From positions 1 through 45,539 of the forward strand of contig JACRBX010000268.1 of the NCBI GenBank assembly GCA_016219225.1: a stretch of DNA of 45,539 nucleotides. The letters run 5' to 3'. The translations under genes were made by a program, and so were the position numbers. Origin of the DNA: Deltaproteobacteria bacterium. Its GTDB lineage: Bacteria > Desulfobacterota > RBG-13-43-22. The number at the start of each line of letters is the position of its first letter. Positions within the stretch are counted from its first letter, which is position 1. The notes under the pieces are model-generated. The model had not been told where the DNA came from and did not search any database. It saw only the letters and a program-made list of their open reading frames with translations. Shown here piece after piece: positions 35,964-45,397 of the stretch.

Positions 35964-38060
35964 GTGGGAAAAATAAAAAAAGGATTGTTTGGTGTTGCTG
36001 TCTTGATAGTGGTTGTGATCGGTTACGCCCTCTCGGGAGGAACCCAGGGCGGCAGTGGACAGGTCAACCTCTGGCTGATGAACGACATCACCATTGCCAC
36101 TCAAGGTTCCGCGGGCACAGTCAGCGATATGAACTGGCTGATCGTCGGTGCGGGTGATTTCAACGGCGATGGCAAATCCGATATCCTCTGGCGCCATGCC
36201 GCTACCGGCCAGGTTTATCTCTGGTTGATGAATGGAACGACCTCAATCGGTTCGAGTTCTTTGGGAACCGTTAATCCGGGCTGGCAGATTGCTAATGCGG
36301 GTGATTTCAACGGCGACGGCAGATCCGATATCCTCTGGCGACATGCCGCTACCGGCCAGGTTTATCTCTGGCTGATGGATGGGACGGCCTTAGTCGGCCA
36401 GGGGCCTTTGGGGACCGTCGATACGGGCTGGCAGATTGTTGATGCGGGTGATTTCAATGGTGACGGTAAATCCGATATCCTCTGGCGTCATGCCGCTACC
36501 GGCCAGGTATTTCTCTGGCTGATGGATGGAACGGCCTTAGTCGGCCAGGGCACCTTGGGGACCGTCGATACGGGCTGGCAGATTGTTGATGCAGGGGATT
36601 TCAACGGCGATGGCAAATCCGATATCCTCTGGCGCCATGCCACTACCGGCCAGGTTTATCTCTGGCTGATGAATGGAACGGCCTCAATCGGTCAGGGCTC
36701 TTTGGGGACCGTCGATACGGGCTGGCAGATTGTTGATGCAGGGGACTTCAACGGCGATGGCAAATCCGATATCCTCTGGCGCCATGCCGCTACCGGCCAG
36801 GTTTATCTCTGGCTGATGAATGGAACGGCCTCAATCGGTCAGGGCTCTTTAGGGACCGTCGATACGGGCTGGCAGATCAAAGGCGTCGGTGACTTCAATG
36901 GCGATGGCAAGGCCGACATCCTCTGGCGCCAAACCACCGGCGGTCAACCGAGTCCCCCTCCAAACGGAAGCGGATATACCCTGATCGGCTGGAATGACCT
37001 CGGAATGCACTGTATCAATCCAAAGTTTGAAAATGTAGGGATACTACCCCCTTATAACAACTTATGGGTTCAGGTGATCCAGAAGGGGAACCCACCGTCC
37101 ATCGCTACTTCCGGATTTACTCTGGAGTACTCTATTATCAACAACACCACTTCAGCCACAAAGATCAATTTCTGGCAATACGTCCTCAAACTTTTCGGAG
37201 TATCCTTGCCTCCGGATCAAGGTTTAACCGGAAACGGGCTCAGGGGCCGGATGCAGCTCGTAGGAGACCATTTTGAGGTCACGGGCATCCCGATAACGCC
37301 CTACGAGGATAATATGACCTGGAACCCTTACCAGAGGGCCGTGGTAACCATGAAAGACCCTTCCGGCAATGTGATTGCCACTACGGAAGTAGTCTTGCCG
37401 GTGTCCGATGAAATGCATTGCGACAAATGTCATGCCGATGGCGGTGTGGCGTCTGTCGGGATCAGGACCGGAAATGTGGAGACGAATGTCCTGACCCTGC
37501 ATGACCAGAGAAATGGGACGACCCTGATGTCGAATCGGCCGGTTCTCTGTGCCAGTTGTCATTCGGACAATGCCCTGGGCACAAAAGGGGCCGCCGGCGT
37601 TTCGTCTTTTTCATTGGCCATGCATGATCGACACGGTTCTCTCAGCAGCTCCAGCCAGCCTTCCTGTTACGACTGCCACCCCGGCCCGGCTACCCAATGC
37701 AACCGAAGCGCCATCTCGGACATGGGGCCTTCCGGCACTAATCCAAACTGCCAGAAATGTCACGGCACCCTGGCGCAAGTGGCGACTTCCATCAAACAGG
37801 GCCGGCAGCCCTGGCTTCAGGAGCCTACCTGTATCCAATGTCATGATTCAAAATTTAAAACCAACCAACCCCTCTACAGGAATTCGACCGGAATGGGCGG
37901 CGTTTATTGTGCCGCCTGTCATAACAGCCCCCATGCCTGGTGGCCGTCGATGCTGGCAGTAGATAATACACAACCTATCAGACTGCAGGGGAAAGCCCGC
38001 CAAATAGGCAACTGTCAGGTCTGTCATACCAACAGCCCAGGCGGCAGCCATGTCCATTAA
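35964..38060 (+). CDS. FG-GAP/VCBS repeat protein fused to a seven-heme c-type cytochrome
   Basis: 698 residues, GTG start with CAGGAGA. Order: signal peptide or anchor (7-26), six FG-GAP repeats of 49-50 residues (about 53-327) each with a Ca2+-type loop D-F-N-G-D-G-K/R-S/A-D, a Pro-rich linker, an unassigned domain opening with GWNDLGMHC (about 335-480), and a C-terminal region with seven CxxCH heme sites: CDKCH, CASCH, CYDCH, CQKCH, CIQCH, CAACH, CQVCH. Expected outside the inner membrane, moving electrons; the repeats would give a propeller for binding a partner or surface. It follows a sigma-54 promoter unit. A terminator follows the stop. Confidence 0.9.
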   Translation: MGKIKKGLFGVAVLIVVVIGYALSGGTQGGSGQVNLWLMNDITIATQGSAGTVSDMNWLIVGAGDFNGDGKSDILWRHAATGQVYLWLMNGTTSIGSSSLGTVNPGWQIANAGDFNGDGRSDILWRHAATGQVYLWLMDGTALVGQGPLGTVDTGWQIVDAGDFNGDGKSDILWRHAATGQVFLWLMDGTALVGQGTLGTVDTGWQIVDAGDFNGDGKSDILWRHATTGQVYLWLMNGTASIGQGSLGTVDTGWQIVDAGDFNGDGKSDILWRHAATGQVYLWLMNGTASIGQGSLGTVDTGWQIKGVGDFNGDGKADILWRQTTGGQPSPPPNGSGYTLIGWNDLGMHCINPKFENVGILPPYNNLWVQVIQKGNPPSIATSGFTLEYSIINNTTSATKINFWQYVLKLFGVSLPPDQGLTGNGLRGRMQLVGDHFEVTGIPITPYEDNMTWNPYQRAVVTMKDPSGNVIATTEVVLPVSDEMHCDKCHADGGVASVGIRTGNVETNVLTLHDQRNGTTLMSNRPVLCASCHSDNALGTKGAAGVSSFSLAMHDRHGSLSSSSQPSCYDCHPGPATQCNRSAISDMGPSGTNPNCQKCHGTLAQVATSIKQGRQPWLQEPTCIQCHDSKFKTNQPLYRNSTGMGGVYCAACHNSPHAWWPSMLAVDNTQPIRLQGKARQIGNCQVCHTNSPGGSHVH
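36120..36944 (+). repeat. Tandem coding repeat, unit 147 bp
   Basis: Units begin at 36120 (150 bp), 36270, 36417, 36564, 36711 and 36858 (partial). Units 3 to 5 are nearly identical in DNA, indicating recent expansion or gene conversion. Each encodes one FG-GAP repeat of the cytochrome fusion. Copy number may vary between strains and in assembly. Confidence 0.92.
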
Positions 38061-40552: not shown

Positions 40553-40610
40553 CTATTCATCAAAAAGGCGATAACTAAGCTTTTATTTTTAAATGTGGAG
40601 AACCTCTAAT

Positions 40611-40880
40611 ATGCTTATAGAATATATCGATAAAGCCATGAGCAAAGCTGTCTACGACAAGCTCGAAGATGGATCATTTTCTGGAAAGATTCCCAATTGC
40701 CCTGGGGTGATAGCTTTTGGAGCAACGCTCTATCAATGTGAGCAGGAGCTCAAATCCAGTCTTGAAGGTTGGCTTATTGTTAAGATTCGGCACGGGGACA
40801 AATTACCGGTTATGGGCAGGATTAACCTGAACGAAAAGATGCCTGCTTTTCAGGATGAGGCTGCTCCGGCTCATGCCTAA
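40611..40880 (+). CDS. hicB: HicB-family antitoxin
   Basis: 89 residues of the partial RNase H-like HicB fold: DGSFSGKIPNCPGVIAFGATLYQCEQELKSSLEGWL is the family core (split over about 22-58). No obvious C-terminal DNA-binding helix-turn-helix or ribbon-helix-helix, so this is the short form. ATG 40611 follows GGAGA. Neutralises HicA, encoded by the overlapping next gene; antitoxin-first order is the hicBA arrangement. Confidence 0.85.
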   Translation: MLIEYIDKAMSKAVYDKLEDGSFSGKIPNCPGVIAFGATLYQCEQELKSSLEGWLIVKIRHGDKLPVMGRINLNEKMPAFQDEAAPAHA

Positions 40881-41103
40881 GTGGAAACCCTGTAAACGAA
40901 GGGACTTTATAAAAAAACTGAAGAGGATCGGATTTGCCTCCCCTGAACCCGGTGGTAACCATTTCTATATGCGTTACGGAACCTATACCTTCACTGTACC
41001 CAGCAATCAGAAATACTCCGTAGCCCAGGTCAAGACGCTTCTGAAAGAGATTGGACAGGGAATAAAGAGAGGAATTCCATTAGATGAGTGGGAACGTCTG
41101 TGA
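40876..41103 (+). CDS. hicA: HicA-family mRNA interferase toxin
   Basis: 75 residues. The double-stranded-RNA-binding-like HicA fold is clear: RRDFIKKLKRIGF, then PGGNHFYMRY with the catalytic His, then TFTVPSNQKYSVAQVKTLLKEIG. Toxin that cleaves mRNA when HicB is lost. The start ATG 40876 overlaps the hicB stop by 5 bases; an in-frame ATG at 40855 would add seven residues. The C-terminus (IKRGIPLDEWERL) is slightly longer than usual. Confidence 0.85.
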   Translation, partial: PKWKPCKRRDFIKKLKRIGFASPEPGGNHFYMRYGTYTFTVPSNQKYSVAQVKTLLKEIGQGIKRGIPLDEWERL

Positions 41104-41246: not shown

Positions 41247-41303
41247 TTGACAAGAAGATTTTTTTTGTTATATTTTTCTTTAAATAAAAAAGAACAAGCG
41301 TTC
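41247..41303 (+). promoter_or_regulatory. tetR2 promoter and operator-like site
   Basis: TTGACA (41247-41252), 16-base spacer, TATATT (41269-41274): a strong sigma-70 promoter. Just downstream GAAC-AAGC-GTTC (41292-41303) with CG after it matches the core of the palindrome at 41928-41951. The gene's ATG follows at 41308 with no Shine-Dalgarno sequence. Confidence 0.7.
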
Positions 41304-41307
41304 GTGA

Positions 41308-41910
41308 ATGCAGTTTCAAAAAGATGACATAAAGGAAAAAATATTAGCTGCCGCCCGAGAAACGTTTTTAACACAGGGTTTTAGCAAGGCTTCTATGAGG
41401 GGAATTGCCAAAAATGCTTCTGTCAGCACCAGCAACATGTATAACTATTTCAAAAACAAGGAGGAGTTGTTTTACGCCATTGTCGATCCGGTTTTTCATC
41501 ACCTGGCGAATCTCCGTAAAGAGGTCTTTGAATATAAAGCGAATAAAGATTTCAACAATCAAAACTTTATGCAGCAATTTACTGAATTTGTTCCCAAAGT
41601 GATGTTTGAAATGATCAAGAAATACCGCAACGAATTATTATTGATTATGGATTGCAGCCAAGGTACGAAATATGAACAATTAAAAAAGATGATGGCAACT
41701 ACAATGGAAAATAATTTTACTGAGAATATAATATCAAGAAAAAAGAAAAGACTTCTGCGGGATAGTTTTTTAATGCACATTCTATCGATGAATCTGATCG
41801 AAGGTATCCTGGAAATAACGCGGAACTATAAAAATGATGAATGGGCAAAAAACAATATTGATTCTTTGATGAAGTATCATATCAGAGGCATGGTGGAGTT
41901 TTTTACCTGA
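41308..41910 (+). CDS. TetR-family regulator of the membrane sulfur/thiol operon
   Basis: 200 residues; helix-turn-helix SMRGIAKNASVSTSNMYNYFKNKEELFYAI split over about 29-58, then a helical ligand domain of low similarity to other families. AT-rich DNA. No ribosome site is visible before ATG 41308, so translation may start on a short leader. Operator-like palindromes occur both upstream and downstream, which suggests that it represses itself and the five-gene operon at 42035-45397. Confidence 0.9.
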   Translation: MQFQKDDIKEKILAAARETFLTQGFSKASMRGIAKNASVSTSNMYNYFKNKEELFYAIVDPVFHHLANLRKEVFEYKANKDFNNQNFMQQFTEFVPKVMFEMIKKYRNELLLIMDCSQGTKYEQLKKMMATTMENNFTENIISRKKKRLLRDSFLMHILSMNLIEGILEITRNYKNDEWAKNNIDSLMKYHIRGMVEFFT

Positions 41911-41927
41911 ACAAATTTTTTTCAGAT

Positions 41928-41951
41928 AATAACGAACTTGCGTTCGTTATT
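41928..41951. promoter_or_regulatory. Operator of the second TetR, upstream of the membrane operon
   Basis: AATAACGAAC-TTGC-GTTCGTTATT is a perfect palindrome with 10-base arms. It shares GAAC-N4-GTTCG with the site before tetR2. A -10-like GATAAT (41952-41957) abuts it, so binding would block the operon promoter. Confidence 0.78.
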
Positions 41952-41971
41952 GATAATATGGAGGTGTACTC

Positions 41972-42022
41972 ATGGAGAAAGTAACTATATTGAGGGTCCA
42001 TGCTATTCGGAACTTAATTTAA
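41972..42022 (+). CDS. Possible 16-residue leader peptide
   Basis: ATG 41972 follows a strong GGAGGTG site (41960-41966) and reads MEKVTILRVHAIRNLI before TAA. It ends 12 bases before the first structural gene, whose own AAGGAA site overlaps the stop region. Could be a translation-coupling or attenuating leader, or chance. Confidence 0.3.
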   Translation: MEKVTILRVHAIRNLI

Positions 42023-42034
42023 GGAATAAGAATT

Positions 42035-42829
42035 ATGGAAAAGATAAAATCATCTACTTGTTGCATTCAAATCGTTATTGCCTCATTGCTTTATAATCTC
42101 TTACATATATTGGCCTGGGAACTGCCTTTGGCAGTAAGGCTGGACTGGCTGATCAATGTTATTGGGGATGGCGTTATTATTTTAATAATCATCATCAGTA
42201 TTATTCTCATATCCATGAGGAAAAAAGCAGGGCTGATTTTGGGAATGATACCGGCCCTATGGGCGATATTTTTCCAATGGTTCTTAGTCTATATCATCTC
42301 AGGCTATAAAGAGCCCAATGGTGTCTGGTGGTATCCTTTGTTCCCGATCTTTCAGGGCATCATGATCGTGTCTTTTGCCGTTTATACCTACCGTGGTGAT
42401 GGAGGCCAGCCCGATCAGGGGATTGGGACGGGTTTAAAATCACCTTCAATCTATCTATATGCCCCGGCGGCGTTTTTGTTGGTACAAACCGGTCAAAAAT
42501 TCGTAAGGGAGATGGTTGTTGGTTTTCTTGACAACGGCGGCCTGAAAGGTGCCCTTCCAAGCGCTCTGCTGATGCTGATCGCCATTGCTGCGGCGATACT
42601 GCTAATCAAAAGAGTGAAATCGAGTATCGCCTTAGCGATCTTTACCGGGGGTTTCCTCCTGATGCAGCCTGTTGTGTATCATTTAATTATGGGAAAGCCC
42701 TGTCTGGGCGGCCTATGGTGGTATCCTTTTTTCACCGTGGTTCAAGGTGCATTTATCATATATTTTTCATTACTACTTCTTTTTAATGAAAGAATAATTA
42801 CTGCAGACATGAAGGAGAATAATGGATAA
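42035..42829 (+). CDS. Eight-helix membrane protein with internal duplication, unrecognised
   Basis: 264 residues, about eight membrane helices. The halves are related: GVWWYPLFPIFQGIMIVSFAVY (about 98-118, last helix of half 1) and GGLWWYPFFTVVQGAFIIYF (about 227-246, last helix of half 2) share WWYP-F---QG. Also LLYNLLHILAWE in half 1 parallels APAAFLLVQTGQKF in half 2. So it is a 4+4 duplicated protein. I recognise no family. First gene of an operon with rhodanese-like, MauE-like and metallo-hydrolase proteins; a channel, quinone-linked or carrier role is open. Overlaps the next gene by 8 bases. Confidence 0.7.
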   Translation: MEKIKSSTCCIQIVIASLLYNLLHILAWELPLAVRLDWLINVIGDGVIILIIIISIILISMRKKAGLILGMIPALWAIFFQWFLVYIISGYKEPNGVWWYPLFPIFQGIMIVSFAVYTYRGDGGQPDQGIGTGLKSPSIYLYAPAAFLLVQTGQKFVREMVVGFLDNGGLKGALPSALLMLIAIAAAILLIKRVKSSIALAIFTGGFLLMQPVVYHLIMGKPCLGGLWWYPFFTVVQGAFIIYFSLLLLFNERIITADMKENNG

Positions 42830-43271
42830 TATGGAAAAAGCCAAGCGTCCCTCATTTTCATATTATAAAAAGACAGTTATCCTCATCGTCGTTTTGGTCC
42901 TCAATACGATATTGTTAAGCGCCCTTTCTATTTCCGCGAGTTCCGTCGTCAATGAACTCACTCCAAAACAATTGTACAAATTAATGACCGAGAGGGACGA
43001 TATCATTATTGTCGATATTCACGCGAAAACCGACGACAAGATTGGCTATCAAAAAGAGGGATTTGGCAGCGCGATTAAATATTCCCATTTGCCAAACGGA
43101 TTGAAGGACCTCGCCATATATAAAGACAGGATCGTGGTTGTCATTTGTAGCGTGGGGGTTGGCAGCAAATATACTGGCATACGTATGATCCAAAACGGTT
43201 TTAAAAAGGTTTATCACTTGAAGGGTGGAGTCACCCAATGGGTGAAGGACATGGGTTACGTCAATAAGTAA
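42822..43271 (+). CDS. Membrane-anchored or secreted rhodanese-like protein 1
   Basis: 149 residues. N-terminal helix KTVILIVVLVLNTILLSALSI (about 17-37) is a signal peptide or anchor, so the rhodanese domain faces outward. The domain has IIVDIHAK (in place of DvR), active-site Cys109 in ICSVGVGSKYTG, and VYHLKGGVTQW. Rhodaneses carry a persulfide on this Cys. Start ATG 42822 overlaps the previous stop; site GAAGGAG. Pairs with a second rhodanese gene 20 bases downstream. Confidence 0.85.
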   Translation: MDNMEKAKRPSFSYYKKTVILIVVLVLNTILLSALSISASSVVNELTPKQLYKLMTERDDIIIVDIHAKTDDKIGYQKEGFGSAIKYSHLPNGLKDLAIYKDRIVVVICSVGVGSKYTGIRMIQNGFKKVYHLKGGVTQWVKDMGYVNK

Positions 43272-43291
43272 TAAGCATCAGAGGAAATATC

Positions 43292-43804
43292 ATGGATCGC
43301 GAGGGGGAAATGGATTTTAACAATAGTATGTCATCTATTAATCGTAGGATTATCATAGAAATTGGCCTGATAGTTCTCTTCAGCATCTGCCTGGGACTAG
43401 GTTTTAATCTCATTTCAAAAAACAGAATCCCTTATGTTGCTCAAAGCAAATCCGAACAGTATGCCGAAAAAAGCATTCGCCGAATCACCCTGTCGGAGGC
43501 GAAAAAAAGGTTTGATCTAAACAAATCGATATTCTTGGATGCCAGGGACGCAGAGGCTCATAAAAAAGGAACCATTCCTGGTGCTTTAAGCCTGCCCATC
43601 GGCGAGTTCGCCGTCTATTACCCGCAAATGGAGCGTTCATTACCGAAAGATGCCAATATTGTTGTTTTTTGTACGGGAGTCGATTGCAAGGCCGGTTATT
43701 ACCTGACCGTTGAATTAATTAAAATGGATTATAACAATATTGAACTATTTGAAGACGGCATTGATGGGTGGATCAAAAACAGTTTTCCTGTAAAAAAAAG
43801 TTGA
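43292..43804 (+). CDS. Membrane-anchored rhodanese-like protein 2
   Basis: 170 residues with one N-terminal membrane anchor (about 19-41) and a rhodanese domain: SIFLDARDAEAHKKGTIPGAL, active-site FCTGVDCKAGYYLTVEL and DGIDGWIKNSFPV. The active loop has two Cys (127 and 132), which allows a persulfide or a disulfide. Start ATG 43292 behind GAGGAA; another ATG at 43310 is possible. Together with protein 1 it implies sulfane-sulfur or thiol relay outside the membrane. Confidence 0.88.
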   Translation: MDREGEMDFNNSMSSINRRIIIEIGLIVLFSICLGLGFNLISKNRIPYVAQSKSEQYAEKSIRRITLSEAKKRFDLNKSIFLDARDAEAHKKGTIPGALSLPIGEFAVYYPQMERSLPKDANIVVFCTGVDCKAGYYLTVELIKMDYNNIELFEDGIDGWIKNSFPVKKS

Positions 43805-43826
43805 AGTCTTTACGAGAGAGGACAAT

Positions 43827-44306
43827 ATGAAATTACAGGGGTTCTTACGATTGATCGACAATAAATTCACAATTTTAATATTCAGGATAACGTTGGGACT
43901 GGTGTTTGTTTACGCCAGCGTGGATAAAATCCTGTATCCCATGAGCTTTGCCGATTCTGTGTCCAATTACCAGGTTGTTCCCAGGCCATTAATCAATATC
44001 TTTGCAATCATTTTCCCCTGGTGCGAACTTGTCGCCGGTTTGTTTTTACTAAACGGTTTTAAAACACGCAGCAGCAATATAATTATTATTTTAATGCTCT
44101 GCCTTTTTAATGTCCTGATCATCTCGGTTTTGGCCAGGGGACTCCAGATCGATTGCGGTTGTTTCTCATCGGGTAGCGACCCAATTGGAATGATCAAGCT
44201 TTTTGAGGATTGTGGATATCTGTTATTGAGCTTGGCAATTTCCTTTTATGATAAAGGATATTTTTCCCTGGACAGTTTATTTGGAAGGGAAATTACACCG
44301 ATATAG
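43827..44306 (+). CDS. MauE/DoxX-like four-helix membrane protein
   Basis: 159 residues, four membrane helices: LIFRITLGLVFVYASVDKILYP is the DoxX/MauE opening; FPWCELVAGLFLL and a loop LQIDCGCFSSGSDP follow. The IDCGCF Cys pair is typical of MauE-like proteins, which are linked to disulfide formation in the periplasm; DoxX/DoxD relatives take part in thiosulfate:quinone oxidation. So a thiol- or sulfur-oxidising, quinone-linked role fits. GAGAGAGGA site before ATG. Between the rhodanese and hydrolase genes. Confidence 0.82.
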   Translation: MKLQGFLRLIDNKFTILIFRITLGLVFVYASVDKILYPMSFADSVSNYQVVPRPLINIFAIIFPWCELVAGLFLLNGFKTRSSNIIIILMLCLFNVLIISVLARGLQIDCGCFSSGSDPIGMIKLFEDCGYLLLSLAISFYDKGYFSLDSLFGREITPI

Positions 44307-44401
44307 TAACCACTTGGGAATACGCCTGATTTGGTGCACATTGGCGAAATAGAGAAGCACATTGTGCCGGATTTTTAACTATAGCGACTGGCAGAGGAAA
44401 G

Positions 44402-45397
44402 ATGATGAAAAAAATATTATTGTTTATCCCCATCTTTTTGATTTTATGTATTTGCCTGGCATTGATCTATTTTTATTATGATTTCACATTTGGCAGTCAA
44501 AGGGTGGATTCATTCTGTCGAGTTTCAATGGTGAGTAAAATTAAGAACCTGGGAACCACAAAGACGTTGGAGATTTTGCCTCTCGTTGACTGGTCTGCAG
44601 ACAGAAACGACTTGAAACGCGAAGCGGGGGTATCTTACCTGATAAAAACAGATGAATCTCTAATCCTCTTCGATGTTGGCATGAATGGTAATAAAGAAAA
44701 CCCCTCGCCTTTACTCCACAATATGAAGAAATTGGGTATAGAACTGAACAAGATAGGTGTTATTGTAATCTCCCACAACCATGTAGACCATGTTGGCGGA
44801 TTCAAATGGAGTAAAGAAAAAACGTTTTCACTGGCAACCAGGCAGGTTGACTTGGGGGCAAAGAGGGTATATACGCCTGTTCCCATGACCTACCCGGGAT
44901 TAAAGCCTGTATGTTCAGATAACCCGGTAATTATTTCGAAGGGCGTTGCTACTACCGGAACAATCCCGCGCTATCTTTTCTTTAGTGGCTGGACCCCAGA
45001 ACAGGCGCTGGCAATCAACGTAGAGGGCAAAGGTGTTGTCCTTGTTGTAGGCTGTGGGCATCAGACAGTCCCAAGGTTAATTAAGAGAACTCGGGAACTG
45101 TTTGAGGCACCGATTTACGGCATAGTGGGTGGCCTTCACTATGCGGTCACAGACAGCAGGATGAAAAAGCTCGGTATTCCTATACAGAAGTTATACGGAA
45201 CGGGTAAGCTGCCGTGGAAATTTATAACCATGAAGGAAGTAAATATAGACATAGAAGTTATTAGAAAAATTAAGCCGGGAATTATCGCGCTTTCAGCGCA
45301 CGATAGCTGTGATGCAAGCATAGATGCCTTCAGGAAGGCCTTCCCTACTGCTTATCGAGACCTAAGGGTGGGTAATAATCTCGTAATTGGGCACTAG
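44402..45397 (+). CDS. Membrane-anchored metallo-beta-lactamase-fold hydrolase
   Basis: 331 residues. An N-terminal helix (about 4-26) anchors the protein. The MBL metal motif is complete: H125-N-H127-V-D129-H130 (SHNHVDHVGG). ILFDVGMNGN, VVGCGHQTVPRL and IVGGLHY place it near the dihydropteroate/COG1237 branch rather than the ETHE1 persulfide dioxygenases. Tandem ATG (44402, 44405) after AGAGGAAAG. Last gene of the operon; the terminal repeat begins 3 bases after its stop. Substrate unknown; a phosphoester, ester or sulfur compound is possible. Confidence 0.85.
   Translation: MMKKILLFIPIFLILCICLALIYFYYDFTFGSQRVDSFCRVSMVSKIKNLGTTKTLEILPLVDWSADRNDLKREAGVSYLIKTDESLILFDVGMNGNKENPSPLLHNMKKLGIELNKIGVIVISHNHVDHVGGFKWSKEKTFSLATRQVDLGAKRVYTPVPMTYPGLKPVCSDNPVIISKGVATTGTIPRYLFFSGWTPEQALAINVEGKGVVLVVGCGHQTVPRLIKRTRELFEAPIYGIVGGLHYAVTDSRMKKLGIPIQKLYGTGKLPWKFITMKEVNIDIEVIRKIKPGIIALSAHDSCDASIDAFRKAFPTAYRDLRVGNNLVIGH

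Follow-up and report, generated by a model that had tools for sequence, protein, structure and literature searches.

What kind of system do the TetR gene and the five membrane-protein genes near the end of this contig encode? An earlier note had read them as one self-contained extracytoplasmic system for sensing a sulfur or thiol compound and converting it. The window, the whole 45,539-nucleotide stretch that was analyzed, holds six genes at 41308–45397, all on the forward strand and located at or close to the earlier coordinates: a TetR-family regulator, the duplicated membrane protein P264, two rhodanese-domain proteins (RhdA and RhdB), a MauE/DoxX-family protein (MauE), and an MBL-fold hydrolase (MBL). 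The five operon genes are separated by −8, 20, 22, and 95 bp, and this spacing suggests that they share one transcript. The contig stops 142 bp beyond MBL, and therefore the 3′ limit of the operon is uncertain. A hydropathy scan finds a single N-terminal segment in each of RhdA, RhdB, and MBL and several segments in P264 and MauE. Coordinates, spacing, Pfam matches, and hydropathy bear out the description of a TetR gene with five close or overlapping genes, all encoding membrane segments.

The regulator (200 residues, 41308–41910) matches the TetR_N model (PF00440) with 52.6 bits, for a cut-off of 24, and aligns with the TetR proteins of four other loci at 82–90% identity and a dN/dS of 0.13–0.15. 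Its promoter-like site (41247–41274, forward strand), TTGACA-N16-TATATT with TG preceding the second hexamer, is a consensus match only (11/12). The palindrome GAAC-N4-GTTC stands on each side of the gene: operator 1 (GAACAAGCGTTC, 41292–41303) lies immediately 5′ of the TetR start codon, and operator 2 (GAACTTGCGTTC, 41934–41945) separates TetR from the operon. Judged from the window alone, two such sites could be due to chance, as they were reached in 11 of 100 shuffles. The palindrome is also found at both positions in the four other TetR loci, being exact at 9 of the 10 sites of the five loci, with operator 1 placed 5′ of TetR in L024, L025, L026, and L073. Furthermore, the longer pattern GAACNNRYGTTCGTNA has exactly two matches in the whole 5.9 Mb genome, which are the two operators, and none in the control. 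Given this recurrence in four related loci and the mere two matches genome-wide, autoregulation of the window TetR through the palindromes on either side is well supported, and the matching palindromes described earlier stand as real features of the locus. The layout resembles that of autoregulated TetR/AcrR-type envelope-stress operons, in which one operator serves the TetR gene itself and another copy of it precedes the regulated genes. Unlike in those operons, the cargo comprises no efflux pump, and the family of the lead protein has no Pfam, NCBIfam, or PHROGs model.

This lead protein, P264 (42035–42829, forward strand), represents a rare family without annotation. Its halves align to each other in hhalign (E 5.7e-12, 23% identity), which testifies to a genuine 4+4 duplication, as had been noticed for this 264-residue protein, and its AlphaFold2 model, of low confidence (whole-protein pLDDT 54), displays eight helices as two sets of four. 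P264 has no match in Pfam, NCBIfam, PHROGs, PDB sequences, or plasmids, and Foldseek returned nothing at E below 0.001 for this model or for that of the repeat (pLDDT 77). The top Foldseek match, PnuC (E 0.03 with the whole model and 0.4 with the repeat), has a TM score below 0.5 and was taken as no match. A P264 match was found in 2 of 99 relatives, its own genome counted, and in six GTDB contigs. The dN/dS values of P264 and MBL, 0.20–0.31, indicate purifying selection. X129 is a single-repeat relative of the four-transmembrane (4-TM) repeat of P264 and often adjoins a membrane methyltransferase; such pairs are found under TetR-, ArsR-, and DtxR-type regulators, and in one further pair the regulator is not in view. 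Another candidate relative, X242, was dismissed (hhalign E 0.2). The P264/X129 4-TM repeat family is new, and its recurrent partner is a membrane methyltransferase. We found no published description of a pairing between an ICMT/PEMT-family methyltransferase and this family, and the recurring partner provides a concrete lead on the function of the latter.

The window itself bears a trace of such an enzyme. A remnant at 41972–42022 on the forward strand, reading MEKVTILRVHAIRNLI up to a stop, has kept its own ribosome-binding site and is assigned to the ICMT/PEMT type by similarity: it scores 54 for L023, where the shuffled maximum is 26, and the homologous DNA spans 41960–41997. The window has thus kept the opening codons of a membrane methyltransferase gene of the ICMT/PEMT type, which is deleted here and present in related loci. 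What sets these loci apart from known members of this enzyme family is the pairing with the 4-TM repeat family. The top family for the locus-associated enzyme is PF04191 (phospholipid methyltransferase), and its similarity to LmtA (lipid A phosphate methyltransferase) is weak. An intact relocated copy was not found in the own genome, in a search run without a positive control. The earlier note had overlooked both this sixth-gene remnant and the nearby contig end.

No other genome has all five operon genes together, and none of the P264-matching loci, in the relatives or on GTDB contigs, is complete. Gene orders were compared across L023–L028 and L073. The same-genus RBG_13_43_22 (L026) has the order TetR-methyltransferase-P264-MBL, without rhodaneses or MauE, and by comparison with it a TrmO-like gene would be expected beyond the contig end of the window; two other loci have TetR-X129-X242-methyltransferase-P264; in a third species of the genus, TetR and the operators are retained with a cargo reduced to a fragment. 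P264 adjoins MBL in L026 and RhdA, there truncated, in L023. The earlier note had made its claim depend on conservation of the gene set elsewhere, to be sought with P264: the search recovers these two adjacencies, in one relative each, and sub-parts of the set are conserved, but the full five-gene set is not. When compared with L026, the window shows 87–89% DNA identity for TetR and MBL (dS 0.37 and 0.36) and only 73% for P264 (dS 0.84), and its P264-RhdA segment is 87% identical to L023, a different contig. The window is thus a mosaic, whose middle segment and flanks have different closest relatives. By the same comparisons, the sulfur genes seem to be a local version of the locus, not a conserved five-gene machine, and the locus seems to be a self-regulated one whose membrane-protein cargo is swapped or deleted between close relatives. 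Such a TetR locus can hold its regulator and operators while the cargo is swapped, deleted, or fragmented within one genus.

RhdA (42822–43271) and RhdB (43292–43804), both on the forward strand, match the rhodanese model PF00581 with 35.2 and 45.4 bits, respectively, above cut-off. The top PDB match of RhdA is 1qxn (sulfide dehydrogenase, E 4e-8), with the loop Cys aligned; we take this entry to be Sud, a polysulfide-binding periplasmic rhodanese. The identity of RhdA to Sud is low, however, and polysulfide reductase genes are absent from the window locus. RhdB, an anchored rhodanese of the MauE-paired type, carries the loop FCTGVDC, with its Cys aligned to that of 3nhv. MauE (43827–44306, forward strand) scores 90.2 bits on PF07291 (cut-off 27) and carries an IDCGCF loop. 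The Pfam matches of the operon include no MauD-like thioredoxin, mau gene, thioredoxin fold, or superoxide dismutase, and MauE thus lacks the partners expected of a MauE in methylamine dehydrogenase maturation. MauE was also considered as the DoxD subunit of thiosulfate:quinone oxidoreductase (DoxDA) and rejected, as the DoxD models stay below cut-off (17 bits versus 22.7 for DoxD, 14.9 versus 300 for TQO_large_DoxD). RhdB adjoins MauE in 15 of 19 loci, all 19 of which have the CGC loop; such rhodanese-MauE units are common across the phylum and are widespread independently of P264. In one other genus, RhdB-MauE is likewise followed by a COG1237-like MBL, and the RhdA-RhdB-MauE stretch at this locus is complete in one genome only. 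We found no paper on MauE together with a rhodanese, and the abstracts on DoxX and rhodanese do not describe the pair. This pair, common in the phylum and not met as a described pair in the literature searched, offers a lead on extracytoplasmic thiol/persulfide chemistry. SseA of Mycobacterium tuberculosis is rhodanese-like. SodA, DoxX, and SseA of this organism form a membrane-associated oxidoreductase complex, as summarized in a citing article (Nambi et al., cited in PMC6201333), and share with the window operon the combination of a DoxX/MauE-type membrane protein and a thiol oxidoreductase. The operon differs in the absence of SodA, in the N-terminal hydrophobic segments of its rhodaneses, and in the adjacency of its genes under TetR control.

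The membrane-anchored MBL (44402–45397, forward strand) matches Lactamase_B with 43.7 bits, above cut-off, and contains SHNHVDH. Its PDB matches comprise 7dck, Tm1679 (3h3e), 2p4z, lactonases, and B3 lactamases, with no persulfide dioxygenase at E up to 0.01. The motifs HxHxDH, GCGH, GGLH, and SAHDSCD are invariant among five MBL homologs. From its sequence, MBL is COG1237-like: it shares HxHxDH, GCxH, and GGxH with proteins of this type, aligned to 7dck and Tm1679, and differs from them by its N-terminal anchor and C-terminal SAHDSCD. An ETHE1-type persulfide dioxygenase was therefore rejected for MBL, and the idea of a rhodanese-MBL pair of that kind is left without support. The earlier identification of two anchored rhodaneses, a MauE/DoxX protein with IDCGCF, and an MBL with HxHxDH is confirmed by the Pfam scores and motifs. 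The closest anchored relatives of MBL stand alone, and its link to the operon may therefore be only positional.

The explanation that we favor, with roughly even confidence, is an envelope locus that is inducible, regulates itself, and carries exchangeable cargo. Most likely, it would serve as an envelope module that is induced to counter a small compound, here by thiol/persulfide chemistry. TetR would bind the compound, probably hydrophobic or thiol-reactive, and leave both operators; P264 would act in the membrane, binding or moving either this compound or a lipid that bears it. Other lineages would methylate the compound or the lipid, whereas this genome would have lost the methylation step, with an extracytoplasmic thiol relay working beside P264. 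By family knowledge, the loop cysteines of RhdA and RhdB may carry persulfide or thiol groups, which the CGC loop of MauE and the membrane quinone pool may reoxidize or reduce, and the anchored MBL could hydrolyze a small substrate. A bolder version, which is a long shot, makes the 4-TM repeat family the substrate-handling core of an unrecognized inducible system of the envelope whose chemistry can be exchanged: one and the same compound would be handled by membrane methylation in most lineages and by a rhodanese-MauE persulfide relay here.

One dedicated extracytoplasmic system, in which the five proteins jointly sense and convert a sulfur or thiol compound, is unlikely. Close and overlapping genes, MauE with two rhodanese domains, the resemblance of RhdA to 1qxn, the P264-RhdA junction shared with L023, and the RhdB-MauE-MBL order of another genus speak for it. 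Against it, the five genes occur together in no other genome, L026 keeps TetR, P264, and MBL without rhodaneses and MauE, persulfide dioxygenases are not among the MBL matches, and the methyltransferase remnant marks the operon as a rearranged derivative. Of the original proposal, TetR control, membrane location, and the protein identities stand, and self-containment does not, since no related locus carries all five genes and the nearest relative lacks rhodaneses and MauE.

The genes might instead be chance neighbors: a TetR-P264 locus in decay and, landed behind it, a disulfide/persulfide relay of rhodanese and MauE with a housekeeping role, the two having a shared transcript and unshared function. 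The spread of RhdB-MauE without P264, the loss of nearly all cargo in G002, the truncated RhdA of L023, and the mosaic breakpoints are consistent with this; the 8 bp P264/RhdA overlap, a junction present in two lineages, and the intact reading frames of the window speak against it, and it is rather unlikely. It is also improbable that the locus serves TetR-controlled membrane-lipid modification, in which membrane stress would lead P264/X129 and a PEMT-type enzyme to alter phospholipids or a compound linked to lipid, while the sulfur genes would be incidental: the methyltransferase is missing from the window itself, PEMT/ICMT members have many substrates, and the loci have no lipid genes, whereas the PF04191 assignment, the weak LmtA similarity, and the existing X129-PEMT pairs point toward it.

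The TetR gene (41308–41910) of the window, which is an entire contig of a 5.9 Mb assembly, is followed by the genes of P264 (42035–42829), a duplicated four-helix membrane protein of 264 residues, of the rhodanese-like RhdA (42822–43271) and RhdB (43292–43804), of MauE (43827–44306), and of the anchored hydrolase MBL (44402–45397). The earlier note was right, and careful, in its observation of these genes, and the domain assignments are solid for all the products except P264. Two operators, GAAC-N4-GTTC, flank the TetR gene: one directly 5′ of its start codon, the other in the gap before the operon. Two such sites in the window alone are unremarkable (11 of 100 shuffles); across relatives, the motif occupies both positions in five loci, with nine of ten sites exact, and the extended operator pattern matches, in a whole-genome search, only these two places of the window. 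TetR is preceded by a sigma-70-like promoter (11/12 consensus match) and operator 2 by a weak promoter-like site, TTTACC-N17-GATAAT; promoter-like sites are no more numerous here than in shuffled sequence. Just 5′ of the TetR promoter, HicB/UPF0150-like and HicA-like genes (40593–41103) overlap by 26 bp and likely form a toxin-antitoxin pair.

The proposal that the five genes form one conserved, self-contained sulfur machine is unsupported by other genomes: the set is absent from every compared locus outside the window. A search of 99 relatives, the window's own genome among them, gave P264 relatives in two; of 395 genomes across the phylum, only these two had matches at convincing E-values, and six GTDB contigs also carry P264 relatives. 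Their surroundings vary. In the same-genus Deltaproteobacterium RBG_13_43_22 (locus L026), the order is TetR, an ICMT/PEMT-type membrane methyltransferase (187 residues), P264, MBL, and a TrmO-like gene. Loci L024 and L025 carry TetR, the single-repeat P264 relative X129, X242/X273, a methyltransferase, and P264; L023 carries a methyltransferase, X127, P264, a truncated RhdA, and X246; and L027, cut by the contig end, carries a different TetR, X253, and P264. Mis-binning may have affected L023 and L024, short contigs whose MAGs bear the labels Microgenomates and Chloroflexi. In L073 (7218–8220), from a third species of the genus, TetR (83%) and both operators are kept, and a 66-residue X129 fragment and a TrmO-like gene follow; here the loss of the cargo has been caught in progress. 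X242 represents a membrane family unrelated to P264, with no Pfam model above cut-off and a strongly conserved region around SPxxLNALxxSPLGVxNCPT; in L058 (4759–6724), it occurs together with a TetR and a class I, UbiE-like methyltransferase.

The methyltransferase gene has been deleted from the window: 38 bp at 41960–41997 match its start, ribosome-binding site included, with 89% identity (blastn) and an alignment score against L023 of 54 (shuffled maximum, 26), and the remaining frame (41972–42022) ends in a stop after 16 codons. The locus is also a mosaic. Since the TetR region and MBL are close to L026 (87–89% identical, dS 0.37 and 0.36), whereas P264 has diverged from it (73%, dS 0.84) and shares, together with the RhdA start, 87% identity with L023, the stretch that separates TetR from MBL differs in history from its flanks; it arrived by recombination in either the window or L026. 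We hold this account of anatomy and history with high confidence.

RhdB and MauE side by side are a common unit in this phylum, an RhdB-like frame lying near MauE in 15 of 19 MauE loci from relatives, and the CGC loop is kept in all 19 MauE proteins. RhdA, most similar among solved structures to Sud (1qxn), is rarer. For the combination of a DoxX-type protein and a thiol oxidoreductase, SodA-DoxX-SseA offers a known precedent. MBL groups with the COG1237-like proteins, and the relatives that it has in other genomes (55%, 45%, and 31% identical) occur there on their own. In genus g12 (L075, 233–2413), RhdB-MauE is directly followed by a soluble, distant COG1237-like MBL (26% identity), a weak candidate for an independent second case of the window order.

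P264 has no match in Pfam, NCBIfam, or PHROGs. It is a true tandem duplication, as its halves align with an E-value of 5.7e-12 (hhalign); AlphaFold2 predicts eight helices for the whole protein with low confidence (pLDDT 54) and four for the single repeat, both halves and relatives pooled, with moderate confidence (pLDDT 77). Pooling the halves with X129/X127 detected single-repeat relatives in further genomes, and ICMT/PEMT-type methyltransferases adjoin the gene in three of five fetched loci: L089 (ArsR-type regulator, X141, and an enzyme 56–59% identical to the P264-cluster methyltransferase), L090 (3997–6828; DtxR-type iron-dependent repressor, X125 between two PEMT-type methyltransferases, TrmO-like gene), and L091 (X119, methyltransferase, class I methyltransferase). 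The weaker matches, L092 and L093, have no such neighbour. The DtxR-type repressor of L090 hints that the family could be linked to a metal. Because of these three neighbourhoods and of X242 with its class I methyltransferase, the methyltransferase association is broader than that with sulfur genes; we did not find a description of it. The more interesting outcome comprises an undescribed 4-TM family with a methyltransferase partner, and a cargo that is exchangeable under a conserved regulator.

The locus is best read as TetR-controlled, inducible, and envelope-located. P264 would handle a small compound or lipid within the membrane, beside which a membrane methyltransferase would work in relatives; in the window, lacking that gene, an extracytoplasmic thiol relay of RhdA, RhdB, and MauE and the anchored hydrolase would come after P264. 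The data show the anatomy, the operators, the deletion, and the mosaic. The TetR ligand, the part played by P264, the way in which electrons or sulfur would move, and the MBL substrate are presumed in this mechanism, and we regard the functional reading as tentative and rather doubtful; combined with anatomy and history, the best reading is evenly balanced. Elsewhere in the window (35964–38060), a 698-residue protein with FG-GAP/VCBS-like repeats and many CxxCH haem-binding motifs is a putative, unusual multihaem cytochrome.
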